Assembly: GCA_017510725.1 (NCBI GenBank)
Contig: JAFWMD010000023.1
Span: 1 to 60,238, forward strand
Direction: 5' to 3'
Length of the DNA stretch: 60,238 nucleotides
DNA from: Mogibacterium sp.
GTDB taxonomy: Bacteria; Bacillota; Clostridia; Peptostreptococcales; Anaerovoracaceae
The notes beneath the pieces were generated by a model. The model was not told the origin of the DNA. It saw only the letters and a list, made by a program, of their open reading frames with translations, and made no database searches. Numbering within the stretch: the first letter of the stretch is position 1; each line of letters starts with the position of its first letter. Shown piece after piece: positions 34,687 through 53,843 of the stretch. The position numbers and the translations under genes were made by a program.

Positions 34687-34713
34687 TTGGTGCATTATCA
34701 AAGGAGGTCAGCC

Positions 34714-34998: not shown

Positions 34999-35020
34999 AC
35001 AGAAAGGCTGGTACGAACAA

Positions 35021-35488: not shown

Positions 35489-35491
35489 AAG

Positions 35492-38034: not shown

Positions 38035-38064
38035 AAAATCATCCTGAACAGAGTAACAGCAAAA

Positions 38065-38088
38065 CAGGCCGGGATCATTCCCGGCCTG
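38065..38088. terminator. Strong hairpin between the AOR operon and the convergent uptake operon
   Basis: CAGGCCGGGA (38065-38074) and TCCCGGCCTG (38079-38088) form a perfect 10-bp GC-rich stem with a TCAT loop, flanked by a weaker outer pairing (AACAGA near 38047, TCTGTT near 38099). The T-run is poor on both strands. Its place between two convergent operons supports bidirectional termination. Confidence 0.65.
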
Positions 38089-38107
38089 CATTCTTGTTCT
38101 GTTGAGC

Positions 38108-38308
38108 TTATCCCCCTGCGGTCATGAAGCTAAGATAAAAGCGGTGATACAGTTCATCAGCATTATCTCCCGTGATTATGATCCGCGTCTGCGGCATTGT
38201 CATCGATCCAAGCTGTCTGCCGCGCAGCGGTATGACAGTGACATCAGGCTCATCACCGAAAAAAGTCTTTATACGCTCTGAATCTACTGCCCAGACTTCA
38301 TCATACAT
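38108..38308 (-). CDS. Small uncharacterised protein ending in Gly-Gly
   Basis: 66 residues from ATG 38306-38308 (MYDEVWAVDSERIK), which has AGAGG eight nt upstream; a longer start at 38326 has none. No signal peptide. I do not recognise the family. It ends in FMTAGG; a terminal Gly-Gly is a mark of sulfur-carrier proteins, but the rest does not look like MoaD or ThiS, so this may be chance. It is the last gene of the minus-strand uptake operon, about 20 nt after the lipoprotein gene. Confidence 0.6.
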   Translation of the reverse strand: MYDEVWAVDSERIKTFFGDEPDVTVIPLRGRQLGSMTMPQTRIIITGDNADELYHRFYLSFMTAGG

Positions 38309-38330
38309 CTCAAAACCTCTGATCATTGAG

Positions 38331-38840
38331 TCACTTTATGAATTCTATAGATTTGACCATTCTTACCCAGTATGCCGAATCTGACTTCGGGATTATAATA
38401 CGGCACGGAAGGCTTTCTTCATCCAGCGGCTCTCCGTCAATTCCTATTGCCAGGTAGATATCGTGTTCAGTGAAATAATCATTCAGGAGCTTTACATCAT
38501 ATTCATCAGACCCATTGATTATTATTTTTGAGAAATCTTCCTTGCTTGCTCCATATGCCTTCAGTACGGTATCGAGTTCCGGGCCGGTCGCCCTCACCTT
38601 ACCTATCTTGTCGCTCGTGCTTTCGGTCTTCAGCGTCCTGCACTCCATGGCCTTGAGATCAGCAATGGAAATACTTACAGGATCCTCCCCGATGCCTATA
38701 AGCTCTATCTGATCATTCTCATAGGCGCTTATATCTATATTATCTGTTCCGCACGCAGCAAGCATCACCGTGATCAGCAGACACATGATCACAGCAGCAG
38801 CTCTGCTTATTCGTGAATTTTTCCCGCGCCGTACATCCAT
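38331..38840 (-). CDS. Lipoprotein with a single sulfite-oxidase-like (molybdopterin-fold) domain
   Basis: 169 residues. Signal peptide with lipobox LAAC (Cys 30). The mature part follows the oxidoreductase molybdopterin-binding fold (PF00174-like): SISIADLKAMECRTLK, then RATGPELDTVLKAYG, DEYDVKLLNDYF, IYLAIGIDGEPLDEESLPCRIIIP and YWVRMVKSIEF. These correspond to the strand, GVPLxxLL, DGY, LAYxxNGxPL and WVKxIxxI positions of the fold. The Cys that binds Mo in real enzymes appears to be Thr in TLKTEST. So this is probably a binding module rather than an enzyme. The modules of the 2304-aa protein upstream are similar. 13 nt after the DUF2149 gene. Confidence 0.72.
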   Translation of the reverse strand: MDVRRGKNSRISRAAAVIMCLLITVMLAACGTDNIDISAYENDQIELIGIGEDPVSISIADLKAMECRTLKTESTSDKIGKVRATGPELDTVLKAYGASKEDFSKIIINGSDEYDVKLLNDYFTEHDIYLAIGIDGEPLDEESLPCRIIIPKSDSAYWVRMVKSIEFIK

Positions 38841-38853
38841 AATGATTTATACA

Positions 38854-39165
38854 TCAGTTCTCGATTACATAATACTTTCCGGTATCCGGATCGTAGTAAA
38901 CCGTACCCATTTCCTCCAGGCCTTCTGTCGGATCTATGTTCTCATATGCTTCTTCGCCTATTCCGTTGACTTCATATTTGAGCCCTGAATCGTAGTTGAT
39001 CTCACCGCGTTCAGTTATCTCAACGTTCCAGCTCATGATCAGTGCAAGAAGGATGCCGCAGGCAAAGACAAGCATCGCATCCGCCATGTTTCCGACTCCT
39101 TCCATCGGGCTGAAATCATCATCCCTGTACTTTACACGCAGGCCTTTACTTCTGTTCAGTCTCAT
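38854..39165 (-). CDS. DUF2149 protein, ExbD-like membrane partner
   Basis: 103 residues. The DUF2149 signature RDDDFSPMEGVGNMADAMLVFACGILLAL precedes one membrane helix, which ends in MSWNVEI; a short extracellular part ends TGKYYVIEN. The Asp at the start of the helix (NMADAM) resembles the proton-carrying Asp of ExbD. DUF2149 genes are known beside ExbB/TolQ genes in archaea and some anaerobic bacteria. Here the ExbB-like gene is 2 nt upstream, so the pair should form an H+-driven motor. Confidence 0.82.
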   Translation of the reverse strand: MRLNRSKGLRVKYRDDDFSPMEGVGNMADAMLVFACGILLALIMSWNVEITERGEINYDSGLKYEVNGIGEEAYENIDPTEGLEEMGTVYYDPDTGKYYVIEN

Positions 39166-39167
39166 GA

Positions 39168-39815
39168 TTACGGCCTTCCTTCTTTCATTCGTTCCTGTGT
39201 CTGCTCTTCAAGAACTGTCTCCATCAATGTCTCCAGTGCGACCATGTAACTTTCATACCAGCCTTTGCGGATACCTGAGATTACATAAGATATTGCTCCG
39301 GTCACAAGTCCCGCTACCGTGGTGTCAAATGCAATAAGCAGTGAATCTGAAAGAGTCTTGGTATCTCCCTGTCCAAGAGCAATCAGTCCCGGACCAAGAG
39401 GAATAAGGGTACCCATCAGACCAAACATAGGTGCTACCCTTGCTACGATATCCGAAATCTTGGTGATCTTTCTGTAACGCGCTTCCTCGTCTGCGATCAG
39501 CTGACGTGCCAGCGCCTCACGCGTATTGTCCGGATAAGAACCTCTCCTGAGCAGGTATGTCAATGCCCTTTTCTGCCTTTTCAGGATCCGGGCACTGTTT
39601 ATTGATACTTCCATTTCCTCAGAGTTCTTGCCCTGCAGAATGTCGATCAGTTCCGGAATACTTGTTTTCAGCTTACGGTGGTCCGTGAAAAATTCTGCAA
39701 TAATGCTTCCGAGCATCACAACTGATACTGCAATAAGAAGTATCAGTATGATGATAGTAGGAATCTGCAGAGATTCACAGATCACTCTCAATACGTCTTT
39801 CACCGCTTCTGACAT
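39168..39815 (-). CDS. MotA/TolQ/ExbB family proton channel protein
   Basis: 215 residues with three membrane helices: residues 19-40, then, after a long cytoplasmic loop, the family block APMFGLMGTLIPLGPGLIAL, and SLLIAFDTTVAGLVTGAISYV. The Thr and small residues in the last two helices line the proton path in ExbB. Such proteins power TonB or Tol across the periplasm of Gram-negatives; a Gram-positive context is unusual. Ribosome site AAAAGGAGAAAG. It follows the BIG2 protein gene by 12 nt and precedes DUF2149. Confidence 0.9.
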   Translation of the reverse strand: MSEAVKDVLRVICESLQIPTIIILILLIAVSVVMLGSIIAEFFTDHRKLKTSIPELIDILQGKNSEEMEVSINSARILKRQKRALTYLLRRGSYPDNTREALARQLIADEEARYRKITKISDIVARVAPMFGLMGTLIPLGPGLIALGQGDTKTLSDSLLIAFDTTVAGLVTGAISYVISGIRKGWYESYMVALETLMETVLEEQTQERMKEGRP

Positions 39816-39827
39816 TTCTTTCTCCTT

Positions 39828-41189
39828 TTAGAAGTTCTTTCTGTAACGGATTATTCTCGCGACAGCACCTGAGCAGCAGAGCATTCCTGCTCCGGCTGCA
39901 GTGCCTGCAGCAGCTGCAGGGCTGTATGTACGCGCCTCATCGAGAGCCTGCGCGTCTTCATCCATTTTTTCCCTGATTTCCTCTGCAGGCGACACCTCGT
40001 CGACCACTACATCTCCCAGCACTATTTCGTGATACTTTACTGAAACAGGCTGTGCCTTGCTTTCTGTGTCCGGCGTAACGCTTTCCTCTGCAGGATTTGT
40101 TTTTTCTGCACTACTGCTGCTTTTGTTGCTTGCTTTTGTATTATTCTTCTTTGGCGGCTCCCTTACCGGCTCCTCGTTTTTCTCTTCGTCGGTCTCTTCA
40201 TCATCCCCGATGCCGTTAATGGTAATGGAAGCCCTGGTCCCATCAGGCGCGATTGCCGTGATAGTTACGGTACCCTGTTTATGCACTGTAACCTCACCAT
40301 CGCTGTCGACTTCAGCGATCGACTCATCGCTGCTGATCCAGGTCAGGTCATCAGCTGTGTAATCCTCAGCAAACAGCTTATCGACATCAAGATGCGCAGA
40401 GATCTTCTTCACGCTTCCTACTTCGATATTGGGATCATCCAGATCAAGACTGAGCCCTTTTATAGGCGAGCCGGAAAGAGTGATATCTATTCCGTAAATG
40501 CTGTGGCAGGATTCCATGGACGTTATGTCACCGCCATTGTCACTCGGATTAGTCATCTTACCTTCCCTGAGGTCGCCCTGACCCATGCAGAACCTGTAAG
40601 TCTTTTTGGTGTCCATCTGAAGCTCTTCCGCATGAATGCCCGGTTCCTTTGACTCCCCGAACTGAAGTGCAAGTATGGCCGGAACGGGCTCCATCCCTTC
40701 TGTAGCTCCCTCGAGCGGAGTCAGAGCATTCCCCGCTTCATTTCTTTCATATAGAGACGAAAGATTCGGATAATAATATTTCTTTGCAGTAAGATGCCTT
40801 TCGACCGTAAAGTTGCGGGTATAGCCATCTGTCGTCCTGAAAGTGATATTTTTTATTGAGCCCGGGTCTATCCGCGACTGCTTTATTATAGTCATGACTT
40901 CCGGTCCGTGAGCCGCCATGCTCATTACAGTCCCTACTCTGGTAATATTTGAGTAATAGTACGTACGTGCGCCCATAGCTTCCAGCTGGTTTCTTGTAAA
41001 GCGTGCCTTTTCACGTATTTTGTCGCCTATCTCACCATAGTACTGTACCCGGACCACAAGAACATCGCCGGCTGTTTCCGCATATGCCAAAGCCGGCAGC
41101 ACCCACAGGAACTGAGACAGCAGCAACAGCACTGCAGCCATACCTGCCAGTATTCTCGATGTCTTATGTCCTTTTTTACCCCTGCCCAT
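39828..41189 (-). CDS. Membrane-anchored surface protein with sulfite-oxidase-like region and BIG2 domain
   Basis: 453 residues from ATG 41187-41189 (MGRGKKGHKTSR); a TTG at 41199-41201 overlapping the upstream TGA is an alternative. Sec signal ending ALAYA. The N-terminal domain (about 38-245) has TTDGYTRNFTVE, KKYYYPNLSSLY, VPAILALQFG and FCMGQGDLR, motifs shared with the 671- and 2304-aa proteins. A BIG2 domain follows (about 250-330: LTWISSDESIAEVDSDGEVTV), then a Lys/Glu/Ser-rich linker of about 90 residues and a C-terminal helix ending IRYRKNF, so the C-terminus is in the membrane. It lies between the ABC importer and the Exb-like pair and could couple them to the surface, as TonB does; inference. 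Confidence 0.78.
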   Translation of the reverse strand: MGRGKKGHKTSRILAGMAAVLLLLSQFLWVLPALAYAETAGDVLVVRVQYYGEIGDKIREKARFTRNQLEAMGARTYYYSNITRVGTVMSMAAHGPEVMTIIKQSRIDPGSIKNITFRTTDGYTRNFTVERHLTAKKYYYPNLSSLYERNEAGNALTPLEGATEGMEPVPAILALQFGESKEPGIHAEELQMDTKKTYRFCMGQGDLREGKMTNPSDNGGDITSMESCHSIYGIDITLSGSPIKGLSLDLDDPNIEVGSVKKISAHLDVDKLFAEDYTADDLTWISSDESIAEVDSDGEVTVHKQGTVTITAIAPDGTRASITINGIGDDEETDEEKNEEPVREPPKKNNTKASNKSSSSAEKTNPAEESVTPDTESKAQPVSVKYHEIVLGDVVVDEVSPAEEIREKMDEDAQALDEARTYSPAAAAGTAAGAGMLCCSGAVARIIRYRKNF

Positions 41190-41197
41190 TTTCAGGA

Positions 41198-42280
41198 TCA
41201 ATATCCCAGTTCTTCCCTGCTGAATGACCTGCCGTACGCAAGTTCATAAAAAGCAGAAACATTATCTTCGAGATCTTTTTCACTCATAAGTTCCGGATAC
41301 ATAACCGACATCATGTAATCGATCCCCAGAACACTTATGACCCCCGGAAATTCCCATGAATCTCTTTCAGATGGAATCACCACCACATGCCTGTTCTTTA
41401 CTGCTTTCAGCTCTGACCATGCCGGATCCTTATATATATCATCCGCCGTGTATACAGAGCTTTCACTTCCGGAGATGAATATGAAATCCGGATCCCATTT
41501 GAATATCTGCTCCGCTCCTGCTGTCGGCCACAGCTCCGTTGCTTTGAGATCCGCAGCACAGTTTACGGCTCCTGCAGTCTCGAGCATCTTACCCTGCAGC
41601 ATGGATCCGTCAGCTACCTTTCCGATCGATGATCCCATGACTATGGCTGTTTTGCGGTCTTCATCGCTTATGGAATCCGAGAGTCTGCGGGATCTGGCTA
41701 CACTGCTCTGATAATGATCAATAAGCTTTTGAGCTTTCTCTTCTGCCCCGCATACCTTGCCAAGAAGGTCGAGCGCAGTTACCATTTCCTCCGGTGTTTC
41801 GACGCTGATGCCTATTGCAGGTATTCCGATTTTCTGCACTGCTTCCAGGGTCTCGACATCCGAAGCCTTGTGTATGAAAAGATCAGGCTCAAGCTCTGCA
41901 AGAGCTTCTATATCTGCAACACCCTTGCCTACATCCGTGCATTCCTTCAGAGACGGCTGTATCTCTTCAAGGAACGGCTCCGACTTGCCTATACCGGTGA
42001 TACGGTCTCCCATGTCGAGATTGATGAGGAATCTGATCACTACCCTGTAGCATAGAGCTATGGACTGTGGATCTCTTGCCACAGCAACCTCTCTTCCGGC
42101 CTGATCGACCACTGTGATTTCAGTCTCTGTCTCTGAAACGACCGTGCCTGCTGCACTGCTGCCTTCCGGAGTACTTACCCCGGGTTTACCGGCACATCCG
42201 GCCATTAAAACCGAAGAAAGCAGAAGCAATACTGCTATCGCCAGGGCTGCATGCTTTTTCATAATCCAGGTACGAGACAT
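41198..42280 (-). CDS. FepB/BtuF-type ABC transporter substrate-binding lipoprotein
   Basis: 360 residues from ATG 42278-42280, which has TTGGGAGGGCGG; a second ATG at 42262 has no site. Lipobox LMAGC (Cys 29). Class III binding protein: TVVDQAGREVAVARDPQSIALCYR, RITGIGKSEPFLEE, VADIEALAELEPDLFIH, AGAEQIFKWDPDFIFISG and HVVVIPSERDSWEFPG. Such proteins bind iron-siderophore, haem, corrinoid or other large metal complexes, not simple oxyanions. It overlaps the ATPase gene upstream by 22 nt and the BIG2 gene downstream, so all three are coupled. Confidence 0.9.
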   Translation of the reverse strand: MSRTWIMKKHAALAIAVLLLLSSVLMAGCAGKPGVSTPEGSSAAGTVVSETETEITVVDQAGREVAVARDPQSIALCYRVVIRFLINLDMGDRITGIGKSEPFLEEIQPSLKECTDVGKGVADIEALAELEPDLFIHKASDVETLEAVQKIGIPAIGISVETPEEMVTALDLLGKVCGAEEKAQKLIDHYQSSVARSRRLSDSISDEDRKTAIVMGSSIGKVADGSMLQGKMLETAGAVNCAADLKATELWPTAGAEQIFKWDPDFIFISGSESSVYTADDIYKDPAWSELKAVKNRHVVVIPSERDSWEFPGVISVLGIDYMMSVMYPELMSEKDLEDNVSAFYELAYGRSFSREELGY

Positions 42281-43047
42281 GCCGCCCTCCCAAGTTCCTC
42301 TATGTATCTTATCCTTATATCCATGCCGTACACCTCGCTCAGATTCTCTTCAGTAAGAATATCCGAGCTGCTTCCCTGCACCACTGTACCGTCTTTGCTG
42401 ACGATAGCGGCCTGATCTCCCAGGAGAAGCGCATGATCGGGGTTATGCGTAGTGATCACCACAGAGTAGCCTTCAGATGCCATCTGTTTGATCCTGCGCA
42501 GTGTACGATGCTGATTGCCATAGTCAAGATGAGCTGTAGGCTCGTCGAAGAGAATGGCCTCCGGGCTCTGTACGATTGCCCGCGCTATAAGGAGCTGCTG
42601 CCTTTCTCCGCCGCTTATATCCAGATATGACTTATCTGCGATATGGCTTAACCCCATGTTCTCAAGAACTTCGCGGCATTGCTGCTCCTCAGCGGCTGAT
42701 GGTCTGCTGAAGAGTCCCGTATGCGGAGCTCTTCCCATAAGCACAAAATCTATTACCTTATAGTCAAATGCCGGTACATGCATCTGAGGCACGAATCCGG
42801 TCAGCTTTGCTATTTCCTTTTCACCCATTTCACTCAGGTCCCTGCCGCACAGTCTGACAGTGCCTGAGGTAGGCTTTAAAATCCCGGCCATGCACGAAAG
42901 CAATGTGGTTTTTCCGGCACCGTTAGGTCCGAGTATGCAGAGTATCTCACCCTTATGCAGGCAAAGAGAGACCCCTTTGAGCACATCGCGCTCATAGCCG
43001 GGATACCTGAAGCTTATATTTTCAACTTCGTAAATTGCTTCGCCCAT
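42259..43047 (-). CDS. FecE/BtuD-type ABC transporter ATPase
   Basis: 262 residues. Walker A GPNGAGKTT near 40, Q-loop FVPQMHVPAFDYKVIDFVLMGR, signature SGGERQQLLIARAI, Walker B AILFDEPTAHLDYGNQ and the His of ITTHNPDHALLL. It powers import through the FecCD-type permease, whose gene is 11 nt upstream. Start ATG 43045-43047 with a weak site. Confidence 0.95.
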   Translation of the reverse strand: MGEAIYEVENISFRYPGYERDVLKGVSLCLHKGEILCILGPNGAGKTTLLSCMAGILKPTSGTVRLCGRDLSEMGEKEIAKLTGFVPQMHVPAFDYKVIDFVLMGRAPHTGLFSRPSAAEEQQCREVLENMGLSHIADKSYLDISGGERQQLLIARAIVQSPEAILFDEPTAHLDYGNQHRTLRRIKQMASEGYSVVITTHNPDHALLLGDQAAIVSKDGTVVQGSSSDILTEENLSEVYGMDIRIRYIEELGRAACLVPGL

Positions 43048-43058
43048 TTTCGCTTATT

Positions 43059-44099
43059 CTAGTTTAATATGCGGCGCTGACGGTACAGCAGCCATGCAAA
43101 GAACGGAGCTCCGATCAGTCCTGTCAATATGCTCACAGGCATCTCTGCAGGACCTGCCATCCTCGTTACCGTATCCACAAAAAGCATGAAAATGCTTCCG
43201 ATTATCATCGATGCCGGGAGCAGCGTTCTGTTATCCGAACCGGCAAGCATGCGGCCGAAATGCGGTATGACCAGACCTACCCATCCGATAGTTCCTGATA
43301 TACATACAGCTCCTGCAGTCAGCACTGTTGAACAGACGATGCAGATACCCCTCAGCACGCTTACTCTCGCGCCAAGGCTCTTTGCCTCCTGCTCGCCGAG
43401 CGACAGAATATTGATCCACCATGACATGGCGATCAGAACAGCTGCTGCTGAGACCGTAAGCGGCAATATGCTCAGAACCGCTATATTGTCTACATAGGCA
43501 AAGCTTCCCAGCTGCCAGTACGTTATTGCAGCAAGCTGTGTCTCAGGATCGGCTATATATTTAATGAAGCCAAGTATGGACGACATCGCTCCGCCTACTA
43601 TTATTCCTGCAAGTACAAGCATGATGCCTGACTCACTTCTCAGCATTTTAGGAATGAGCATCGTTACGGCAACAGCCAGAAGTCCTCCGGCAAAAGCCGT
43701 TATCTGTACCATGACTGAAGAAAACGACAGCAGTATCGCTATGGCTGCTCCTACACAGGCTCCGCCTGAAACACCAAGAAAGTCCGGGGATACCAGCGGG
43801 TTTTTAAAGATGCCCTGATAAACTGCACCGGACAGGGCCAGAGCAGCACCGACTATTACTGCCGCCATCACTCTCGGCAGTCTTACTCCGACAAGCATGT
43901 TCTCATCCATTCCGTCCCAGGAAGGCTGAGCGCCAGTCAGCTTACCGGCCAGTATCTTCAGACACTCTCCCGGTGATATCTGATACTTTCCAACACAAAG
44001 GCAGGCCAGTATCAAAGCCAGCAGCACAACAAAAAGTACAGGAATGATCAACCTGCTGTTATGTTTGTTGCCCTGTAACTGTACCTGACTGCCCTGCAT
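43059..44099 (-). CDS. FecCD/BtuC-type ABC transporter permease
   Basis: 346 residues, about ten helices. Family marks are VRLPRVMAAVIVGAALALSGAVYQGIFKNPLVSPDFLG (in part), SLGARVSVLRG, GTIGWVGLVIPHFGRMLAGSDNRTLLPAS and a C-terminal GLIGAPFFAWLLYRQRR. It forms a homodimeric channel for metal-chelate complexes. It has its own GGAAGAG site and lies 115 nt downstream of the giant surface protein gene, behind a strong hairpin. Confidence 0.95.
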   Translation of the reverse strand: MQGSQVQLQGNKHNSRLIIPVLFVVLLALILACLCVGKYQISPGECLKILAGKLTGAQPSWDGMDENMLVGVRLPRVMAAVIVGAALALSGAVYQGIFKNPLVSPDFLGVSGGACVGAAIAILLSFSSVMVQITAFAGGLLAVAVTMLIPKMLRSESGIMLVLAGIIVGGAMSSILGFIKYIADPETQLAAITYWQLGSFAYVDNIAVLSILPLTVSAAAVLIAMSWWINILSLGEQEAKSLGARVSVLRGICIVCSTVLTAGAVCISGTIGWVGLVIPHFGRMLAGSDNRTLLPASMIIGSIFMLFVDTVTRMAGPAEMPVSILTGLIGAPFFAWLLYRQRRILN

Positions 44100-44138
44100 T
44101 TATCTCTTCCGTCTTAATATAGATATAAGTATTTTATC

Positions 44139-44173
44139 ACAACAGCTCTCCCTGCATGTGGGAGAGCTGTTGT
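44139..44173. other. 14-bp perfect hairpin between giant surface gene and permease
   Basis: ACAACAGCTCTCCC (44139-44152) and GGGAGAGCTGTTGT (44160-44173) pair perfectly around TGCATGT. Read on the minus strand, no T-run follows, so it is not a typical terminator there; on the plus strand TTTCTTC follows. It may stabilise the 3' end of the surface-protein mRNA or attenuate the transporter genes. The rest of the 115-nt gap (44100-44214) holds only an AT-rich, promoter-like stretch. Confidence 0.6.
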
Positions 44174-44214
44174 TTCTTCATATGAATTGTCAGAATAAGA
44201 ACCTGCGGGCACCT

Positions 44215-47200
44215 TTATTTGACCTTGATCCTGACGGTTACAGTCTTGCTTGCCGGCTTGTGATTGTCACCACCCGCTGCAGTGACCCTGACCTTGATTT
44301 TATAGGTTCCTTTTCTGGTTTTCTTTTTGACAGTGATCTTGCCCGTCTTTGAGTTTATCTTCAGCTTTTTACTTCCGCTTAATTTCTTGAAGGCAGTTGC
44401 TCCAACAGCATTTGTCACTGTTATAGCTTTAACTGTCTTTTTGGACTTCCTGAGTGCCTTTGCCCTGACAGTCTTTTTCTTAACAGTTACCTTCATTGGA
44501 TTTGCGGATTTCTCAACGAGAGCAGCTTTTGCATTTTCAAGTGCTTTCCTGGCTGCATCGATCTCGTCTGTGGTCGCATTCGGATCACTCATTACAGCCT
44601 GAGCTTTAGTAAATGCTGATTCAAAGGCCATGTAAGTCGAAGCAGTGTACTTTGAAGCAGTGTATCCACCTGTCGCAGCTTTCACTATGGTATCAGCAAG
44701 AGCTTTAACCGACTCTGCAGCTCCCTTGATTTCCGCTGCTGCAAGCTTGGCTTCTGCAGCCTCGAGTTTCTCAACAGTACCTGCAGGAAGCTGTGCCTTC
44801 TGCTCATCTGTCAGTGAAGCATAGTCTGCACGTGCCTTTTCGATTGCCGCCTTGTCATCCACAGTGACTGTATCCGGAAGTTCATTGATTTCTCCGGCAA
44901 CTTCTTCAGGAGTTACAGCCGGCTCATCACCGCCTCCGGTCTTTGCATTTACTACGATCTTATTAACATCCTTAGCCCAGTAGCTCTTGTTGTTATCAGT
45001 CTCAGCAAACTGTCCTACGATTACCTTCTGGACTTTGTCTGCTCCTTCGGTCCAGATAAACATAGCCTTGTTGCCTTCACGGTCTTCCGTGAGTGCCTGT
45101 TTTGCCGTATATGTTATCTTATGACCATCTGTTGAGTAGATATCTACAGAGTCTACCTCTGCTCCTTCTTTCATGCCGATGACATCGCTGAAGATGTTCT
45201 CAAGAGTTGCACCCTGTACGTCGGATGTTCCTGTTGTTCCCGAGGAGTTCATCCAGCTGAAAGTTGCGTCTGTTTTCACGATACCTTCTGCATTCTTGAT
45301 GCCCTTGATTGAGAAGTATCCGTCTCTTGCCAGCGCATCACCTGTGACTGTCAGCGCAGCATCCTCCGGTGTAGCATCACCTGCAGGTTCGACTGACGGT
45401 TCGTCACCGCTGCCCTGCGGCTCATCGCCAAGCACGAGCAGGCCTCCGGAAGTACCGACATATGCAGTACCTTCATTCCAGAAGTCTATGCTGTAGACAT
45501 TGTTCATGTTGGCAGCACTCCAGGATCCGGTCTCCTTTGCATACTGTGCTGTGACATCCATCTTTCCTTCAGAATTCAGCTTAGGGTTGTCTACCTTGAG
45601 CACGCCGTCAGCGGATGTTCCGAACCACAGGGATCCGTCCTTATCTACTGCAACCACACGCACTTCTGTCGTGGTGCTTCCATCCAGATAATCTCCCAGT
45701 ACTTCTTTTCCTGTATATCTTTCAGGCTCAGCATTTCCTGACTTCCACTTCCAGATGACTCCTCCGACGTTGTCCTCAAGATTAGTTCCTGCTGCAACTG
45801 CCCATACGGTTCCCTTCTGGTCGATAGCGATGCTGCGTACCCAGATCTGTGCAAACATCGGGTCGGAAGCGCCGGTCTCAGTCTTGATCTTATCAACGTT
45901 TCCGTCCTTATCGATATGGCAGAATCCGCCTTTGTAAGGATCTGCTTCGGTTCCGGATCCGTCAGGATAGAATCCGAGCCATGCTCCTCCCTGTCCGTCA
46001 AGTACTATAGTGTTGATGGATGTTGCCGGGAAGTCTTTGTCTTCCTTACCATAGGTAGTCCATGTTCCTGCTGAAGGATCATGGATCGTCAGTCCGCCGA
46101 ATGATCCGAACCATACCTTGCCGTCTGTATCGACCTTAATAGCCTGTACGTAGTTGTTCGGGATTGTGCCCGGGTTGCCGTCGGCAGTGTACTGGGTGAC
46201 TTCTTCACCCTTGATATACAGTACGCCCTGATTGTTCGTCGGATCCGTGTAGCTTGCATTCTGGCTGACCCAGATACCGCCGTCAGCATCAGCTGCAACA
46301 GCCGATGTGAAGTCAGTCTTCAGCGCAGGCGTGCTGGTTGTATTCATCACCTTGAACGAATCCGCTCCCGCTGCCTTGCTGTACAGGCCTCCGCCATAAG
46401 TGCCGACCCAGATCGTGCCGTCCTTGTCCATCCATGTGGAACGTATTCCGCCCGTAGTCGGATATTCCTTGAATGCCGTTACTTCCGGAACATCAAGTGT
46501 AATTGCTGTAACATTGGTGCACTCGTCATACCACTCATCCTGATTGCTCAGTCCGTTTGCCTCGCAGTAGTTGCGGTACATTCTGAGATTTGTATGGATA
46601 TCCGTGCCCTTGACAGTATCATCGATATCCTTCCACTCGCCGGAAGCAGCATCCCACTCCTGATATGCGAGGAAGTATTTCTGCTCTGCTGCCTGCTTCA
46701 GCGTGATGTTATTGTATGAAGCGCCCTTACCGGTCGTTTCAAAGCCATCCGGAGTATTCAGCGTTATTACAGTGTTTTCATTGTCTATGCCCTTTGCGGC
46801 AAGTATGTTCTTAAGGAGAGCACCTTTTACCTTCCTGACAGTTCCCTTTACGGTGTACTCGCCCTCTGCCTGTCCTACATTATCGCCCGAGCTGTTTTTC
46901 AGGTTCTTTATGTCTTCGACAGACATCTCAATGTCACCGCTCTTGAGTCCCTTGATGGTAAATGCAGCAGGCTCTTCAGGCTGGCTGCCTCCCTCACCGG
47001 CAACTACAGTGATCTTTGTTACATATGTCAGTGATGTGCCCTGTGAATTATGCGTGATCAGGCGCAGCGGACCGCCATTATTGCCTGCTGTCGCGTCATA
47101 TCCTTCACCGTCAGGCTTATGGTTCTTGTCACCAATAACAAGCGGATATCCTCCAACTCCATAGGCGAGTATAATAGGAACTCTGTCCTCTCCATCCTTT

Positions 47201-50200
47201 ATTCCGTTTTCGAGCCCGTCGATTCCGAATTTAGCTCTTATTTCCTGGCTGTATCCGTCCTCAGCTGTTACTGTTACGCTTATCGGGTCACTCAAATCGG
47301 CGTTATTACCAACTTCCTGCTTTACCCATTTCCAGAAATTGATGCCTTCCCAGGTAAACTCCTGAACAACAGTAGCAATAATTCTTTCCACAAGACTGGT
47401 ATTGTCTTCTATCTCTCCAACCGTAAACGTCTTGTTATACAGTTCTTTTCCGTCCTTATCATTAACTACCAACTGAACAGGCTCTTTACGGTACTGTTTA
47501 TAAACCTCAGAACTGTTATGATTCCAGCTGGTCATTTCCGATGCGGTGACTTCGATTGACTTGACAAGTTTAAGATTGCTGCCGCTGTTGACATCTTCAG
47601 CATCAGTCTGTCCAACGACAAGTCTTACCGGGCCTCCGTTGTTGCCATAGGACGAATCGTATCCTTCACTTTCTTTATCCGCAACGAGCGGCAGTCCATC
47701 TTCCTTGTCTTCAGTTCCTGCTTTGCCGACACCATATGCAAGAATCACAGGAAGGTTTGCATCACCTGTTATAGAGTTGATATAGTCAGATTTCCTGATC
47801 TGTGACAATGTAAATTCCTTGGATTCTCCGTCAGTTGTCGTAATTATTACCTTGTCTGCATTGCTCTTGAGTCCTACCGCTGAGGATGTGAGCAGTGAGT
47901 ACAGTTTTATTCCACGATATCTGGTCTGGGATGCAGTCTGCCCGTCTCCGCTCTTAAGAATGCTGTAGTCACCTGTGAATGCTAATGTCTGCTTTCCCTC
48001 AAGTTCGGACAGATTAATGGCCTTTCCTTCTGTGCCGAGTCTGGTTCCCTCACCTGAAATTGTGACTTCATAGTCGGCATAACTGTTATATGGAGCCTTT
48101 GTATGAGCATACTGATCAGCTGACAGATTAATCGTGATCGATGTTACATTCGTAAGGCTCTTATCGGAAACGCTGCTGTCCGTATGCGGGAACAGTACTG
48201 CAAGAGGTCCGCCGTCGTTCTTGACGGTAACAGGATTTTCATATTCTGTTCCTTCTGCCAGTTTTAGTTCTTTTACGTATCCCTGAGCATTTTTGTCAAG
48301 GACCATAGGGTAACCATTCTTACCGTATGCCAGCAGCGGAACAAGTCCGCTCATGCCGGTCTCAGTGTTGCTGCCGTTGTCAGCAGCAAGTACATCTTCA
48401 AGGCTTAGCGTAAGCTCATTGGTTCCGTTACTGAATGTAATGGTTCCCTTATGTCCCGGAAGCTCGACTACCTCTTCAAGGAAGAAGTTCAGATTGACTC
48501 CCTCATACAGATCGCTGTATGAACTGCTTCCCTTTGCCAGCTGATAGAAGGTTTTTACCTTTGCTTCTTTCAGCTTGTTTGTCGTGAGACTTCCTCCGTA
48601 AATGAGTTCCTCTATATCACCCAGCTTATATGTCTGACTCTTAAGCTCCGGAGCATCTGCATCGGCACCGTTAAGGATCTTTACCTCAAGAGTGCTGTCC
48701 TCTGCAAGTTCCTGATAAACAGGTTCCGAAGGGTTATATTTGTGCGTGCTGTAGTGATTTGAATTGTCTCCTACGATGATCTTGTCAAGGTATTTTGCCT
48801 GATTTGATCCGTTCGCATGGTTGTATTGCTTCTTGCCCGAGATGACACGCAACGGACCTCCGTCATTCTGAAGGCCGGATATATATCCCGCCTGAGAAGC
48901 TTTCTCCACATATGGATATCCATTGACGCCGTATGCAACAAGCACCGGATATCCCTTTGCGATCAGGTCTCCGTTTGGATGGTCATCATCCCTCATGACC
49001 TCGTTGTTTTCATGAGACCAGCCGGCTGTATTCGGATCTTCAGGATTCTTCTCATAGAATCCAAAGCTGTCCGGATCTGCAACCTGTTTTATGGTGAACT
49101 TATCAGTAGCTGCATAACCATCAGTAGCAGTTGAACTGACCAGTGTCTCATCATCTTCTGCCAGAGCCGGATCCAGACCGGACTTCAGCAGGAGCTTCCA
49201 CAGCTGGACACCTTCGTATTCATTGACATACCAGTAAGTGGAATTGGCCAGGCTGTATTCATCACGATAGCCCATTCCACTGTTGTCAGGCTTGCCTTCA
49301 GAGTCATATTCCACCATACCTTCCAGCTGATCCACGGTATAGTTGACTTCCATGCCAATCTTATCTCCGGTAACAGTAACTATGTAGTTTGAGATATCCG
49401 GTGACTGATATGGACTCTTGTCGTGCTTGTATCCCGGAGTTTCGGCATCAGCAACATAGATATATGCCATGTTGCCGAATGTTTTATATTTTTCATTTCC
49501 ATCGCCTGTGATTGAAGACTTATCATAAACAAGCTTCAGACAACCGTCTTCATTGCCGAGGTCAGGATCTGCTCCGGCAGCATTGTTGAATACAAACGGT
49601 CTCACATTGGTTCCGTCAGTCAATGACGTTCCGTATGCGACAAGTATCGGTGTTCCACTGTTGTGTGCCTCTTCAACCTGTTCTATCGTAAACTCAGCAA
49701 TAGTGCTGCGATTTCTATTCTTTATAAGGACTTTCTTCGCCAGGTCAGTAAGGATGATACCATTATCGCCACTTGACATGTTGTGAAGGATATAATACAG
49801 GTCTATCCCCTCATATGTCCTTGTTATATCACTGCCATCACGCTTATCTGTATAATTAGCTCTTACGGCACCGGCATCTCTTCCCTCAAGGTCACGGACC
49901 GAGACCGGAACACTGGTCTTTACTCCAGGTCCCTCGACAGTAAGAGTGGCGCCTGTAATCGAGTCAATGTTATAAGGAGCAGTTCCCTCCTGCCCTCCAT
50001 TGGTTATGTGTTTATACGGGCTCTTAGAGAAATCGGTTCCTGATGGTGTTGTCACACTGATCCTGTTGACCATCGAAGCCGGCTTGAAGCCATCTCCATA
50101 AAGTGTCAGAAAGCCGTATTTCGACGAATCACTCTTTGCAGTCTTATAAATTCCGTTGCCGTTCGCCTCATATGCCAGCATATAGTTGCCGTCTATAAGC

Positions 50201-51129
50201 TCCTGAACGGTCGCAGTAGCAGAACTCATATCATATCCGTCAGCAGCCTCGAACGAGACTACACTGTCAGGATCCTCTCCTTTCAGGAGCACTGACATAG
50301 GCACGCCGCGGACTGCATCCGTCACCTCACCGCTCTTTGTACTATACGTATAGGAAGCTTCTGCGAAATCCATCATCAGCACATCTGCACGTGTATACTC
50401 CTTGCTTCCTACAGTGAGTACCACCTCTGTCAGCGGATCTCCTCCGGTCACATATGTCATATACTTGCCGTATGCAGCATTATTCTGATCGTCGACTGCA
50501 AGCTGACCTACCACCAATGTAAGGTACTTTTTATCGCTGCCTGCACTCTCAGGATCAGCAGATGAACTGTTGGCATTTGCCCAGGACAGCATCGGCTGAA
50601 CTTCCTCCGGATCAGACGGGTCTTCAGCCAAAACACCCGGGAAAAAGTATCTCTGAACTGCCAGACCTGTAAGATTCAGTCTTCCTGGCTCTGTTACTGC
50701 AGGATCAAACGTAACGACATAAGGTGTCGCCTCATTTGAACTAAGTGTCAGGACATCTTTTTCCGGATCAAATGCCGTACCGTCCAGCAGTGATGTCAGA
50801 TACACTCCGCTGGCTCTGTACAGGAGCTTGGTAAATGGCTCCTGAGTCTTCTTTGAGGAGTACTGGACATCGACCCCTCCAGGAAGATTTTTCAGCTCAT
50901 CCCTGGTATATGACCGCTCCAGACCCACATTTTCCGCAGTATAAGCCGAGCCTCCTATAACTGCGCTTCCTGAAACAACTACTTCAGGTGTCATGGTCTC
51001 AAGACTGCCTGATTCAGCATAGGCATAATAGCCTCCTGCTGTCGGCATCATCGTGAAGACCATGGTCACGGCCAGTACTGCTACAAGCAGCCTGGATGCT
51101 GTGACCTTCCATCTCTTTCCGGACAGCAT
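44215..51129 (-). CDS. Giant secreted protein with about nine sulfite-oxidase-like modules and a beta-propeller
   Basis: 2304 residues, start ATG 51127-51129 with GAGGAGGTAAAC. Sec signal ends YAYA (38). Residues about 45-1550 are eight modules of roughly 190 residues of a degenerate oxidoreductase molybdopterin-binding fold. Each repeats a GVxLWxLL-like strand, a DGY/DG turn, LAYGVNGYP and NGGPLRL. Residues about 1555-1860 are a two-component-regulator-type propeller (DKDGTIWVGTYGGGLY, DTDGKVWFGSFGGL, DKDGSLWFGTSADG). A ninth module (about 1880-2020) and FIVAR-like helices (about 2060-2190) follow, then a Lys-rich Ig-like end. Only four Cys are present, none at the Mo-ligand position. No LPXTG. 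YNIDSITGATLT near 388 resembles a flavinylation motif. Probably a surface receptor of the adjacent importer; inference. Confidence 0.82.
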   Translation of the reverse strand: MLSGKRWKVTASRLLVAVLAVTMVFTMMPTAGGYYAYAESGSLETMTPEVVVSGSAVIGGSAYTAENVGLERSYTRDELKNLPGGVDVQYSSKKTQEPFTKLLYRASGVYLTSLLDGTAFDPEKDVLTLSSNEATPYVVTFDPAVTEPGRLNLTGLAVQRYFFPGVLAEDPSDPEEVQPMLSWANANSSSADPESAGSDKKYLTLVVGQLAVDDQNNAAYGKYMTYVTGGDPLTEVVLTVGSKEYTRADVLMMDFAEASYTYSTKSGEVTDAVRGVPMSVLLKGEDPDSVVSFEAADGYDMSSATATVQELIDGNYMLAYEANGNGIYKTAKSDSSKYGFLTLYGDGFKPASMVNRISVTTPSGTDFSKSPYKHITNGGQEGTAPYNIDSITGATLTVEGPGVKTSVPVSVRDLEGRDAGAVRANYTDKRDGSDITRTYEGIDLYYILHNMSSGDNGIILTDLAKKVLIKNRNRSTIAEFTIEQVEEAHNSGTPILVAYGTSLTDGTNVRPFVFNNAAGADPDLGNEDGCLKLVYDKSSITGDGNEKYKTFGNMAYIYVADAETPGYKHDKSPYQSPDISNYIVTVTGDKIGMEVNYTVDQLEGMVEYDSEGKPDNSGMGYRDEYSLANSTYWYVNEYEGVQLWKLLLKSGLDPALAEDDETLVSSTATDGYAATDKFTIKQVADPDSFGFYEKNPEDPNTAGWSHENNEVMRDDDHPNGDLIAKGYPVLVAYGVNGYPYVEKASQAGYISGLQNDGGPLRVISGKKQYNHANGSNQAKYLDKIIVGDNSNHYSTHKYNPSEPVYQELAEDSTLEVKILNGADADAPELKSQTYKLGDIEELIYGGSLTTNKLKEAKVKTFYQLAKGSSSYSDLYEGVNLNFFLEEVVELPGHKGTITFSNGTNELTLSLEDVLAADNGSNTETGMSGLVPLLAYGKNGYPMVLDKNAQGYVKELKLAEGTEYENPVTVKNDGGPLAVLFPHTDSSVSDKSLTNVTSITINLSADQYAHTKAPYNSYADYEVTISGEGTRLGTEGKAINLSELEGKQTLAFTGDYSILKSGDGQTASQTRYRGIKLYSLLTSSAVGLKSNADKVIITTTDGESKEFTLSQIRKSDYINSITGDANLPVILAYGVGKAGTEDKEDGLPLVADKESEGYDSSYGNNGGPVRLVVGQTDAEDVNSGSNLKLVKSIEVTASEMTSWNHNSSEVYKQYRKEPVQLVVNDKDGKELYNKTFTVGEIEDNTSLVERIIATVVQEFTWEGINFWKWVKQEVGNNADLSDPISVTVTAEDGYSQEIRAKFGIDGLENGIKDGEDRVPIILAYGVGGYPLVIGDKNHKPDGEGYDATAGNNGGPLRLITHNSQGTSLTYVTKITVVAGEGGSQPEEPAAFTIKGLKSGDIEMSVEDIKNLKNSSGDNVGQAEGEYTVKGTVRKVKGALLKNILAAKGIDNENTVITLNTPDGFETTGKGASYNNITLKQAAEQKYFLAYQEWDAASGEWKDIDDTVKGTDIHTNLRMYRNYCEANGLSNQDEWYDECTNVTAITLDVPEVTAFKEYPTTGGIRSTWMDKDGTIWVGTYGGGLYSKAAGADSFKVMNTTSTPALKTDFTSAVAADADGGIWVSQNASYTDPTNNQGVLYIKGEEVTQYTADGNPGTIPNNYVQAIKVDTDGKVWFGSFGGLTIHDPSAGTWTTYGKEDKDFPATSINTIVLDGQGGAWLGFYPDGSGTEADPYKGGFCHIDKDGNVDKIKTETGASDPMFAQIWVRSIAIDQKGTVWAVAAGTNLEDNVGGVIWKWKSGNAEPERYTGKEVLGDYLDGSTTTEVRVVAVDKDGSLWFGTSADGVLKVDNPKLNSEGKMDVTAQYAKETGSWSAANMNNVYSIDFWNEGTAYVGTSGGLLVLGDEPQGSGDEPSVEPAGDATPEDAALTVTGDALARDGYFSIKGIKNAEGIVKTDATFSWMNSSGTTGTSDVQGATLENIFSDVIGMKEGAEVDSVDIYSTDGHKITYTAKQALTEDREGNKAMFIWTEGADKVQKVIVGQFAETDNNKSYWAKDVNKIVVNAKTGGGDEPAVTPEEVAGEINELPDTVTVDDKAAIEKARADYASLTDEQKAQLPAGTVEKLEAAEAKLAAAEIKGAAESVKALADTIVKAATGGYTASKYTASTYMAFESAFTKAQAVMSDPNATTDEIDAARKALENAKAALVEKSANPMKVTVKKKTVRAKALRKSKKTVKAITVTNAVGATAFKKLSGSKKLKINSKTGKITVKKKTRKGTYKIKVRVTAAGGDNHKPASKTVTVRIKVK
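46460..51010 (-). repeat. Eight tandem divergent sulfite-oxidase-like modules in the giant protein
   Basis: Protein-level repeats of about 150-230 residues. The recurring elements are Y(E/R)G(V/I)xLxxLL, (T/S)xDGYxxxFT, P(V/I)(L/I)(L/V)AYG, GYPxV, GY, NGGP(L/V)RL and a closing VTxIxV. NGGP elements fall near residues 760, 973, 1166 and 1355. Modules have diverged strongly, so DNA-level identity is low and recent duplication is unlikely. Confidence 0.7.
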
Positions 51130-51169
51130 GTTTACCTCCTCTCAAATTCCTCTAACTATTCATAATCAA

Positions 51170-53185
51170 TTACTTAGCCTTTGTGTGTTTCACGGCAGAA
51201 AAGCTGCCATATACCTTTCTGTCTCCTACTGTTCTGTAGGCTATGACTTTATAATAATATTTCCTGCCTTTTTTCAGCTTCTTGTTGACGAAAGATACTT
51301 TTGTACCGCTTTTTACAGTCTTGACAGCTTTAAAGCCCTTTGTCTTCTTTGTTGATCTGTATATGACGTATCCGCTCGCACCGGATACCTTGCTCCATTT
51401 TACTGTAATCTTCTTTTTCCCTGCCTTTAGTTTGACTGACGGTTTTCCAACGCCTGGTGTAACATAGTAAGTCAGATTCGTGACAGGGCTGTCCTGCTTT
51501 CCATAAGATGTAAGAACGATGCTGATGGTGTGTTTGCCGTTAGCTCTCAGAACCGGAGGATTTATCAGCTTCTGAGGCCAGTGAAAAGCTCCATAATAGT
51601 AAAATGCGTCTCCCGGGCCCGGTACTTCTCCCGGAGCAGGATCAACTATGTAATATAGCTTGTCACGGCTGTCCGCTTTCGCCGGCATAGGGAACTTTAT
51701 TACTGTTCCGGGACTTACTATCGATCCGGAAGCAATGGACGGTGCCGGAACAGCACATCTGGATGCAGGGGCAGTATTGATATCAATAAAAGCAAGATTG
51801 AGCATATAATCCACACACTGCGGGAAGTTCTGCTCATTAGGAGCTGTCTGGCCGATCATCAGAGTATTATCTCCTGAAACACTTATTATCGCCGGGACAG
51901 GCTGTTTTCCTTCATATGCTGCAGGGGATGCTTTTCCTCCCGTATTGTTTGTCCCGGAAGCGGCATTCGGGAAGTAATATCTCTCGCTTCCGAAAAGCTG
52001 ATCTACAGTAAATACGGAAGTATAGCCGTCGGAGCCTGTAAAAGTTATGGTACTGTTGCCCCCGAAATCACTTATTTCCTTTCCGGCAGCATCTCTGATT
52101 ATGCTTTCAACACGTATGCCTTCAACATCCTCTTTGAAGGAAAGTGAAGGAAATGTATTGTACCCGGAATAGCTGAAGGTCTCTGCTTCAAAACCTGACA
52201 ATACGTCATCAGCAAGGTGATATGCCTTGGCGGTCTTACCATCTACCGTGACCGTCAATGCATTACCAACTGAAAAAGAGAATACCTGCAGACTGCTGTC
52301 CTGCTTCCCGTAGCACTTGACCTTTATTTTAATGGTCATGCGCACCCCGTCGCCGGATAACAACGGTTTGCAGTATTTTTCATTTCCATAGTTATATATA
52401 GGGCCTGCGAATCCGGGGCTTGCGTTTTTGTCAAAGGTATAGCATATCCTTTCACCCGCAGCTGCCTCACCAAAAGTGATCTCGGTGCCGTCATATGATA
52501 TGGATCCCGGCTCTGGGTCTGTCACAGTAACACCTTTGCATTTATCAGCGTCCTTTGTTGATACATTTATTATCCCGGGATTATCAGGATTTAACAGGCC
52601 TGTAATGAACAGCTCATCATTTTCTTCAGCCGGCTCTGTCTGTCCTACACAAAGCATTCCATGGCGCTCAGTCCCGTCTGCCAGGCTTATAACAGCGGGT
52701 GTCTCATCGGATCCGTCCTTTGCGTCAGGAGGTATCACACCGGCAGCATGGTCAACACTGCCTCCATACGGATAATAATATCTGGTTTCGGAAAGCAGTT
52801 GTTTTCCTGTAAGACTGACTGTTTGCCCGGATGTAAATGAAACAACACATTTATCACCTATTTCATTCAGGATCCCGGCCTTAGCCAGTATCCCACGGAC
52901 AGTTGGTCCTTTGATGCCGGTATACTTATTCCCACTGAATTCCGGTTCAGTGTTCCATGCTGAGAAATTATATGAAAGGCTGCCCTCTTCCGATGCTATC
53001 TGCTGCAGATCATCATATGAGAAATCCCATGTTTCACTGTCCTTCTGTACAATGAGTACAGTATCTGAATCTGCGCAGACATTTATTGAGGCAAAAACAA
53101 ATACAGCGGCAAAAAAGGCCATGATCAATGTGGTCTTAAATACCGCTGAAATTGCTTGTTTAAGGCTTATATTCATATTATTCAT
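51170..53185 (-). CDS. Secreted protein with two sulfite-oxidase-like/CHB_HEX-like units and Fn3-like end
   Basis: 671 residues, start ATG 53183-53185 with GCGGAGGATC. Sec signal ends NVCA near 38. It contains two similar units: a module with FSYDDLQQIA, GIKGPTVRGILAKAG, ETRYYYPYGG and HGMLCVGQT, then a chitobiase-C-like domain (GSISYDGTEITF, CYTFDKNASPG, IKVKCYGKQDSS); and a second copy with GYTSVFTVDQLFGSERYYFPNA, VPAIISV, LMIGQT, GSIVSPGTVIKF and VLTSYGKQDSP. A Lys-rich Fn3-like domain closes it (KKKITVKWSKVSGASGYVIY). RYYFPN, PAII and GQ recur in the giant and BIG2 proteins, so all three surface proteins share one module family. 40 nt before the giant gene. Confidence 0.78.
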   Translation of the reverse strand: MNNMNISLKQAISAVFKTTLIMAFFAAVFVFASINVCADSDTVLIVQKDSETWDFSYDDLQQIASEEGSLSYNFSAWNTEPEFSGNKYTGIKGPTVRGILAKAGILNEIGDKCVVSFTSGQTVSLTGKQLLSETRYYYPYGGSVDHAAGVIPPDAKDGSDETPAVISLADGTERHGMLCVGQTEPAEENDELFITGLLNPDNPGIINVSTKDADKCKGVTVTDPEPGSISYDGTEITFGEAAAGERICYTFDKNASPGFAGPIYNYGNEKYCKPLLSGDGVRMTIKIKVKCYGKQDSSLQVFSFSVGNALTVTVDGKTAKAYHLADDVLSGFEAETFSYSGYNTFPSLSFKEDVEGIRVESIIRDAAGKEISDFGGNSTITFTGSDGYTSVFTVDQLFGSERYYFPNAASGTNNTGGKASPAAYEGKQPVPAIISVSGDNTLMIGQTAPNEQNFPQCVDYMLNLAFIDINTAPASRCAVPAPSIASGSIVSPGTVIKFPMPAKADSRDKLYYIVDPAPGEVPGPGDAFYYYGAFHWPQKLINPPVLRANGKHTISIVLTSYGKQDSPVTNLTYYVTPGVGKPSVKLKAGKKKITVKWSKVSGASGYVIYRSTKKTKGFKAVKTVKSGTKVSFVNKKLKKGRKYYYKVIAYRTVGDRKVYGSFSAVKHTKAK

Positions 53186-53202
53186 AAGATCCTCCGCAAT
53201 TC

Positions 53203-53712
53203 TTACAGTTTGCTTTTCAGAATCTCATACAGTTCATCCCGGTTTTCGGGAGTTATATAGTAAACATCCGCATTTGGATGGTTCAGTATCTTATTCAGGA
53301 AGTCTATGTCATGACCTGCCTTGGCTGTGGCAATGACAGGGATGTCTCCGTCAAAAAGTTCAAGCACCCGGCTGCAGAATTCTTCTGCGTCCTTCTCCAT
53401 GAATCCGAGTTCATCCATAATGATTATCCCGTCCGGCTCAGCATCAAGGCAGCTGACACCGTAATTGTTGAAAGCGTCGGGATATGCGACCGGGCCGATG
53501 CCGTTTCCGTCGCCGATATGGTTCTCTTCTGACTCTGTACGCGTGGCTGATCCGGCAGCAAACATATAAAAAGATTTGTAACCCTTGCGGACGCTGGAAC
53601 CCGGTGCCGTGCGAAATCCGTACAGAGGCTTGTCACAGCCTTCCAGCAGGCGGTTTACCAAAGTGGTTTTTCCTACATGCCTCTTGCCTGCAATGACGAT
53701 ATGCTTACCCAT
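53203..53712 (-). CDS. THEP1-type nucleoside-triphosphatase (NTPase_1 family)
   Basis: 169 residues. P-loop GKRHVGKTTLVNRLL near 8-22, Walker B-like GIIIMDELGFMEKDAEEF near 96-113, and a later VIATAKAGHDID. This matches the NTPase_1 (PF03266) family, whose members hydrolyse NTPs and whose cellular role is unclear. It is the first gene of the uptake operon, 17 nt before the 671-aa surface protein gene. A GTP- or ATP-dependent cofactor-handling role, as for MobB-like proteins, is possible but unproven. Confidence 0.85.
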   Translation of the reverse strand: MGKHIVIAGKRHVGKTTLVNRLLEGCDKPLYGFRTAPGSSVRKGYKSFYMFAAGSATRTESEENHIGDGNGIGPVAYPDAFNNYGVSCLDAEPDGIIIMDELGFMEKDAEEFCSRVLELFDGDIPVIATAKAGHDIDFLNKILNHPNADVYYITPENRDELYEILKSKL

Positions 53713-53764
53713 GCTGCCATTGTCCCCCGGGTGTAAAAAAAGTTTGTATAAAAAAATGATATAC

Positions 53765-53776
53765 TTGGAATATAGT
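53765..53776 (-). promoter_or_regulatory. ACTATATTCCAA repeat, proximal copy
   Basis: On the minus strand ACTATATTCCAA ends 53 nt before the NTPase start. An identical copy lies 45 nt further upstream, and similarity extends a few bases beyond the 12-mer. A TATACT overlaps this copy and could be a -10 box. Same-face spacing (about four helical turns) suits cooperative binding by a regulator. Confidence 0.5.
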
Positions 53777-53809
53777 ATACCACTTTTTCTAAATATCTAT
53801 TATTCGTGT

Positions 53810-53821
53810 TTGGAATATAGT
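53810..53821 (-). promoter_or_regulatory. ACTATATTCCAA repeat, distal copy
   Basis: Second perfect copy of the 12-base motif in the 131-nt gap between the moaD-like stop (53844) and the NTPase start. No clear terminator separates the upstream AOR operon, so some read-through into the uptake operon is possible. The shorter TTGGAATA also occurs in the LysR upstream region on the minus strand near 32207-32214. Confidence 0.45.
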
Positions 53822-53843
53822 TAACAATTGGTCCGTAGCTGAA

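Follow-up and report, generated by a model that had tools for sequence, protein, structure and literature searches.

A probable surface-uptake system with an Exb-type motor in the molybdenum/tungsten cofactor regulon of Clostridia

Introduction

What does an ExbB-type motor serve in a bacterium in which an outer membrane is not expected, and what would it help to bring into the cell? The question is raised by a contig of the clostridial Mogibacterium sp. (GenBank assembly GCA_017510725.1, contig JAFWMD010000023.1), the whole stretch of which (60,238 nucleotides) is called the window here. A minus-strand run of genes at 38108-53712 combines such a motor with a FecBCD-type importer and very large secreted proteins. 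A preliminary description, made from the letters alone, had proposed a system of surface capture, motor and importer in single-membrane bacteria, and the gene neighbourhoods conserved in relatives support it. The run very probably encodes a surface-uptake system that is part of the molybdenum/tungsten (Mo/W) cofactor regulon and uses an Exb-type motor. Its cargo, at a probability that we put at roughly 0.55, is a molybdopterin (MPT)-type cofactor rather than haem or corrinoid.

The molybdenum cofactor (Moco) and the tungsten cofactor (Tuco) are generally regarded as products of each cell's own synthesis. According to the accessible text of one report, worms take up dietary Moco by an unknown route (PMC9793310), and MPT uptake by type XI secretion system (T11SS) proteins appears as a speculation in the available part of one paper (PMC12282271). 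The open-access literature searched yielded no description of the present system, of a Moco/Tuco uptake system or of a single-membrane Exb-type surface-capture motor, and we therefore rate the system as new. Each protein family is known singly; the shared module, the regulon, the swapping of importers and the candidate cofactor auxotrophs are new.

Results

Gene organization and a shared pterin-fold module

The run comprises 11 co-directional genes (open reading frames, ORFs, checked; Table 1), in line with the ten or eleven counted in the preliminary description, and the genes named there are open at their places. A Pfam scan of ten of them, the 66-aa gene being outside it, identified NTPase_1, FecCD, ABC_tran, Peripla_BP_2, Big_2, MotA_ExbB, DUF2149, Oxidored_molyb and Reg_prop. 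The successive intergenic gaps are 17, 40, 115, 11, -22, -4, 12, 2, 13 and 22 bp. The near-gapless arrangement thus stands; its reading as a single operon is less secure, since the 115-bp gap before FecC holds a 14-bp stem (z -3.4) that possibly divides the run into two transcription units, with read-through that may be partial.

Table 1. Features of the gene run and its flanks in the window
Feature	Position	Strand	Remarks
NTPase_1 (PF03266) P-loop protein	53203..53712	-	first gene of run; Pfam
671-aa secreted protein	51170..53185	-	two modules (residues 39-213, 308-473); sub-cut-off fn3 match
2304-aa secreted giant protein	44215..51129	-	eight modules; propeller repeats (Reg_prop); FIVAR match below cut-off
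14-bp hairpin between 2304-aa gene and FecC	44139..44173	-	possible partial terminator; T run on + strand side
FecCD-type permease	43059..44099	-	Pfam
ABC ATPase of FecBCD-type importer	42259..43047	-	Pfam ABC_tran
Substrate-binding lipoprotein, Peripla_BP_2	41198..42280	-	Pfam; PDB relatives include 4hn9 and HI_1472
457-aa anchor	39828..41201	-	one module; Big_2; helix 428-456 at C terminus, then basic tail; candidate motor client
ExbB/TolQ/MotA-type motor protein	39168..39815	-	Pfam
DUF2149 protein	38854..39165	-	one hydrophobic segment with Asp29; ExbD-like role proposed
169-aa lipoprotein	38331..38840	-	stand-alone module (PF00174); PruR-like fold
66-aa small protein	38108..38308	-	last gene
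Intrinsic-terminator-like hairpin	38064..38089	-	closes run
Leader	53713..53843	-	promoter-like site; hairpin then T run; no RF01055

The secreted proteins had been taken for four unrelated kinds, and this view has to be given up: the 169-, 457-, 671- and 2304-aa proteins share one module, present in 1, 1, 2 and 8 copies, respectively, or 12 in all. Both the 169-aa protein and the module of the 457-aa anchor have the sulfite oxidase/PruR fold (PF00174). The module alignment has no cysteine-rich column that could hold a Mo-ligand cysteine, and a pattern search for twin-arginine (Tat)-like signals gave 0 of 170; N-terminal signals are present. Modules were counted with a core profile trimmed of a CHB_HEX-like tail. 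An earlier count of 68 module loci, from BLAST clustering, was dropped: the cluster also joined proteins through other repeats, and the core profile gives 56 of 84.

The 2304-aa protein also contains the motif DSITGAT (residues 389-395; window 49945-49965), which we take to resemble an ApbE flavinylation motif. Motifs of the ApbE type occur in six giant proteins, namely that of the window and its homologues in loci L016, L017, L020, L021 and L027 (locus and genome labels are ours), and ApbE and PF07456 adjoin the L020 operon (Pfam) and, by clustering, also lie beside L017 and L029.

Conservation in relatives

An ExbB scan supplied the best 80 of 401 confirmed loci, to which the window, G001, G179 and G131 were added to give 84; L006 and L067 are one stretch of G001, leaving 83 distinct loci. 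Modules are found in 56 of the 84. In the 74 bacterial loci from the scan, the strand of ExbB carries 149 of the 151 module genes; a module gene stands directly upstream of ExbB in 47 loci and a recognized DUF2149 gene directly downstream in 48. The order FecC to substrate-binding protein (SBP) to ExbB was found in 15 of the 47 loci with enough upstream sequence, and importer genes in 28 of the 56 module loci. The partners are thus conserved, with the importer sometimes not next door. The first condition named as refuting the preliminary proposal, a lack of conserved neighbours in relatives, therefore does not apply. The window's ExbB is 88% identical to that of L012, which is also its nearest neighbour in the ExbB tree, and the 66-aa protein has clear relatives only in L012, L013, L015 and L016 among the collected loci.

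Two other ExbB arrangements were observed. In Methanobacteriaceae the order is CobN-DUF2162-ExbB-DUF2149 (Pfam for L086; the same clusters in six loci). Seven loci (L046, L047, L049, L051, L063, L067 and L069) form a module-free ExbB clade with 100/100 support, which probably serves another ligand: MoaA, MoaC, MoeA, AFOR and MoCoBD_1 were not found in two of its genomes, G001 and Hornefia (G421), the latter having one PF00384 match. Surface proteins of this clade include a pyrroloquinoline quinone (PQQ) propeller and cadherin-like domains in L047/L067 and DUF4430 in L063. One locus of the collection, L036, is a contig labelled Parabacteroides that carries a Clostridia-type operon, and its bin may be mixed.

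Motor pair and importer

The window's ExbB/TolQ-like protein was correctly recognized, with a MotA_ExbB domain (PF01618) at E 1.6e-12. For DUF2149 an ExbD-like role is proposed from its position, its single hydrophobic segment and Asp29, which is invariant in four aligned sequences; a search of its profile against the PDB gave no meaningful match. PF09919 was detected in 5 of 391 genomes of the class, one of these (G284, a 631-aa frame) being judged spurious. Gene calling revealed a hydrophobic C-terminal segment in 35 of 39 module-bearing genes upstream of ExbB; of the other four, two fall just under the threshold, one has an unreadable tail and one (G179) ends in SLH repeats. The 457-aa anchor, which lies beside ExbB-DUF2149, is a candidate client of the motor, and module proteins in this position might take the part of a TonB-like transducer.

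The importer, with PF01032, ABC_tran and PF01497, is of the FecBCD type. The best PDB relative of its SBP is 4hn9, annotated with an iron complex, and HI_1472 (3psa) matches at E 9e-16; among NCBIfam models, the permease scored best with BtuC and the ATPase with a haem model, both below cut-off. Clustering placed a FecC-type permease in 23 of the 56 module loci and an energy-coupling factor (ECF) S component in 5, the latter (PF09819) being confirmed by Pfam for L030 and L032; G179 is also of the ECF type. In other species an ECF importer can stand in for the FecBCD one. ECF importers with such an S component are known for vitamins and cations, not oxyanions, and the FecBCD and ECF classes both carry B12 and haem, so alternation between them is more in keeping with a large cofactor than with an oxyanion.

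Probable position in the Mo/W-cofactor riboswitch regulon

Rfam was applied at the gathering threshold to the window, L006-L009 and L012-L068 (L010 and L069-L091 fell outside the scan). Two kinds of RNA were found in the scanned loci, RF01055 (15 sites) and two tRNAs, and no other family, including haem or cobalamin riboswitches, reached the threshold there. The RF01055 RNA responds to Moco in E. coli, as the accessible part of the source describes (PMC2408646). In L018 it lies 29 bp before an NTPase-module-FecC-ABC-SBP-module-ExbB-DUF2149 run, in which the NTPase_1 homologue is the first gene; it precedes a module-FecC run in L019 and L028, module-ExbB-DUF2149 in L031 and L066, and, in L030, an ECF S component together with a module protein of 857 aa; in L044 it stands ~110 bp before a module-less ExbB. 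Haem or corrinoid, the cargo considered in the preliminary description, is therefore disfavoured, RF01055 being the only riboswitch class found and the fold a pterin-binding one; tungsten, likewise on its list of ligands, is retained.

Searched genome-wide, RF01055 was detected in 27 of the 53 carrier genomes, with 25 of these over the cut-off and 76 matches altogether. The genes behind 61 of these were examined, some sites having been chosen as upstream of known loci, and a module gene is among the first two downstream at 19. The stretches include runs just outside L020, L021, L025, L027, L040, L071 and L076. Other genes in this position, identified by eye, are formate dehydrogenase, aldehyde ferredoxin oxidoreductase (AOR), xanthine-dehydrogenase-like enzymes, MoeA and genes that could not be named. 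FecBCD importers with no ExbB in the stretch also follow RF01055 (L098, L122, and L108 in the contig of L040). L122 (269-4546) appears to be a less elaborate importer belonging to this regulon: RF01055 is followed, as judged by sight, by a lipoprotein-like gene of 318 aa and by genes for SBP, FecC and ABC, and the 6 kb of available sequence contains no ExbB. An even sample of the class has RF01055 in 53 of 391 genomes and MoaC in 86 of 391, compared with 27 and 32 of the 53 carriers, a comparison that ignores kinship and in which riboswitch scoring was shallower for the class (8 candidates per genome versus up to 49 in carriers).

The genomes of L012, L014 and L016 have no RF01055 match, whereas in those of L013 and L015 a single match apiece precedes apparent Moco genes; in the clade of the window, RF01055 control of the operon is lost, replaced or undetected. 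A bin of Oscillospiraceae has four Moco riboswitches around ExbB genes that lack modules and around secreted proteins, one of which has a dockerin domain (L044 9761-14576, L053 7687-7816). In one genome of Desulfotomaculaceae (L030, G409), 12 RF01055 matches were counted, and part of them are arranged in tandem.

Cofactor synthesis and Mo/W enzymes in carrier genomes

The 53 carrier genomes contain MoaC in 32, MoaA in 33, MoeA in 30, AFOR in 37, PF00384 in 38 and MoCoBD_1 in 37, with the rpoB control in 46. At least one of AFOR, PF00384 and MoCoBD_1 is present in 48 of the 48 genomes whose locus bears a module, a figure that covers carriers alone and in which certain PF00384 frames of around 1170 aa are possibly not Moco enzymes. 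MoaA, MoaC and MoeA were all undetected in 17 of the 53, of which 16 retain rpoB; with rpoB itself missed in 7/53 as the base rate, at least 17 such losses have p 0.0003, a value weakened by clustering of the Moa/MoeA genes and by kinship. Two of the 17 (the complete G001 and Hornefia G421) lack AFOR, MoCoBD_1 and the module, and the other 15 have AFOR or MoCoBD_1; 13 of these 15 have a module in the locus, one (G414) being labelled Parabacteroides and possibly a mixed bin. Among RF01055-bearing genomes, MoaC is missing from 9 of 27 carriers versus 6 of 53 genomes of the class sample (p 0.03, weak). XdhC is kept in the species of L018, L020 and L060, and a MobB-FdhD fusion also in that of L020, so that late steps of the cofactor pathway are retained where early ones are missing. 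These three species are among the candidate cofactor auxotrophs.

Surroundings of the run in the window

The run lies in a Mo/W island with MoeA twice, MOSC-MoCF, MoaA and MoaC at 22.6-28.2 kb, plus two AOR genes. On the plus strand at 32312-38034, a run of ferredoxin, AOR, MoaD-like, NuoE, NuoF and NuoG-like genes, of which AOR alone is confirmed by profile, resembles an electron-bifurcating tungsten oxidoreductase operon. The second AOR, then ferredoxin-like and MoaD-like ORFs (both by sight), are found directly upstream of the system, at 53844-54290 and 54296-56272.

Discussion

Gene order, fold, anchor helix and the position of the riboswitch in relatives were established by computation, and from them we infer the ligand, its hand-over and the transmission of force. 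Surface arrays of a pterin-binding fold without the Mo-ligating cysteine would take Moco or Tuco from outside, either free or from proteins of dead cells, the arrays on the wall perhaps acting as decoys that strip the cofactor from the surroundings. The ExbB-DUF2149 proton motor may act on the adjoining module protein, anchored by its C-terminal helix, and so loosen or move the ligand. The 169-aa module lipoprotein and the SBP would then receive it, and the FecCD/ABC importer, or an ECF importer elsewhere, would carry it inward. That we are dealing with the first system in any cell for taking up a preformed Mo/W cofactor, and that it lets some gut and sediment Clostridia live as cofactor auxotrophs, is a tentative proposal to which we give somewhat less than an even chance.

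Several results weigh against a cofactor as the cargo. No module was found in 28 of the 84 loci (27 of the 83 distinct ones), including six archaeal loci, several short contigs and the module-free clade. RF01055 was not detected in 26 of the 53 carrier genomes, in the leader in the window or in the window genome, which is 84.5% complete, and 42 of the 61 examined sites have no module gene close downstream. MoaC is present in 32 of the 53 carriers; metagenome-assembled genomes are incomplete, and the Moa/MoeA genes may form one cluster, so that one lost contig removes them all. The window genome encodes its own MPT synthesis (MoaA, MoaC and MoeA in the window), and the window species is therefore not a case of cofactor auxotrophy. 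Finally, TupABC/ModABC-like transporters, identified by sight, also follow RF01055, and metal alone could be the cargo.

That reading would make the system a tungstate/molybdate or metal-chelate importer of the MolBC-A type, whose modules concentrate the oxyanion or chelate while the cofactor is made inside. It is unlikely in our estimate, though a serious competitor. HI_1472, among the SBP relatives, is MolA, and MolBC-A is FecBCD-like. MolBC-A is a molybdate importer, as given in the accessible text of the source (PMC4031551), and the Moa/MoeA and two AOR genes of the window genome and the Tup/Mod-like genes in the same genomes are in keeping with such a role. Against it stand the annotation of the best SBP relative, 4hn9, the ECF-type importers with a PF09819 S component in five loci and G179, the pterin-binding fold of the modules, and the 13 module-bearing genomes in which MoaA, MoaC and MoeA were not detected.

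The fold admits another reading, in which the modules sense pterins or serve as flavinylated electron carriers for extracellular redox, with the motor passing on a signal. According to the part of the report available, PruR binds pterins in a signalling role (PMC13259868), and the ApbE-type motif of the six giant proteins and the ApbE gene beside L020 could be seen in this light. However, the ten scanned operon genes contain no GGDEF or kinase domain, importer genes occur in half of the module loci and a cofactor riboswitch controls relatives, which leaves this reading improbable. Haem or corrinoid uptake as in the Hmu system, with the Gram-positive surface replacing the TonB receptor and hemophore, is less probable still. 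Haem was the first lead, from the equation of DUF2149 with HmuV, and was dropped after the riboswitch results. The ExbB-DUF2149 pair, as in the hmu operon, would suit it, as would the sub-cut-off BtuC and haem models and a Shr-like haemoglobin-interacting domain found in one relative; but RF01055, with no haem or cobalamin riboswitch in the scanned loci, the lack of CobN among the ten scanned genes of the operon in the window and the pterin fold argue otherwise.

If a cofactor is indeed imported, cofactor sharing in anaerobic communities would become testable, and an Exb-type motor without an outer membrane would bear on how such motors act upon their clients. If metal alone is carried, gut anaerobes would still have in this system a new route for capturing tungsten or molybdenum at the surface.

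Comparison with known systems

The window's importer has the FecCD permease, ATPase and SBP of MolBC-A and other FecBCD importers but places them in an operon with a motor and surface modules. TupABC, WtpABC and ModABC are oxyanion importers for which the accessible part of the source mentions no surface arrays or motor (PMC11980592); Tup/Mod-like genes (by sight) lie behind RF01055 in some of the same genomes. With PruR and sulfite oxidase/MsrP the modules share the fold and, like PruR, they are secreted and lack the Mo-ligand cysteine; they differ from PruR in forming arrays of up to eight, in their link to a motor and importer, and in having no DcpA-type partner among the scanned operon genes. 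The archaeal CobN-DUF2162-ExbB-DUF2149 loci of Methanobrevibacter and relatives have adjacent ExbB and DUF2149 genes, as here, and are close to the Hmu gene set, whereas CobN and DUF2162 there take the place of modules and importer and their ExbB proteins form a separate branch of the tree. In Hmu of Bacteroidota (HmuYRSTUV), as the available parts of two reports describe, MotA/ExbB and DUF2149 genes energize the uptake of a large metal cofactor with the help of an extracellular binder (PMC12583661, PMC10434189). The two systems share ExbB (HmuU) and DUF2149 (HmuV), assigned by gene order. CobN (HmuS), present in Hmu, is absent from the ten scanned genes of the window operon, as are a TonB-dependent receptor and HmuY; the window operon instead has importer genes and pterin-fold modules, and its relatives a Mo/W-cofactor riboswitch.

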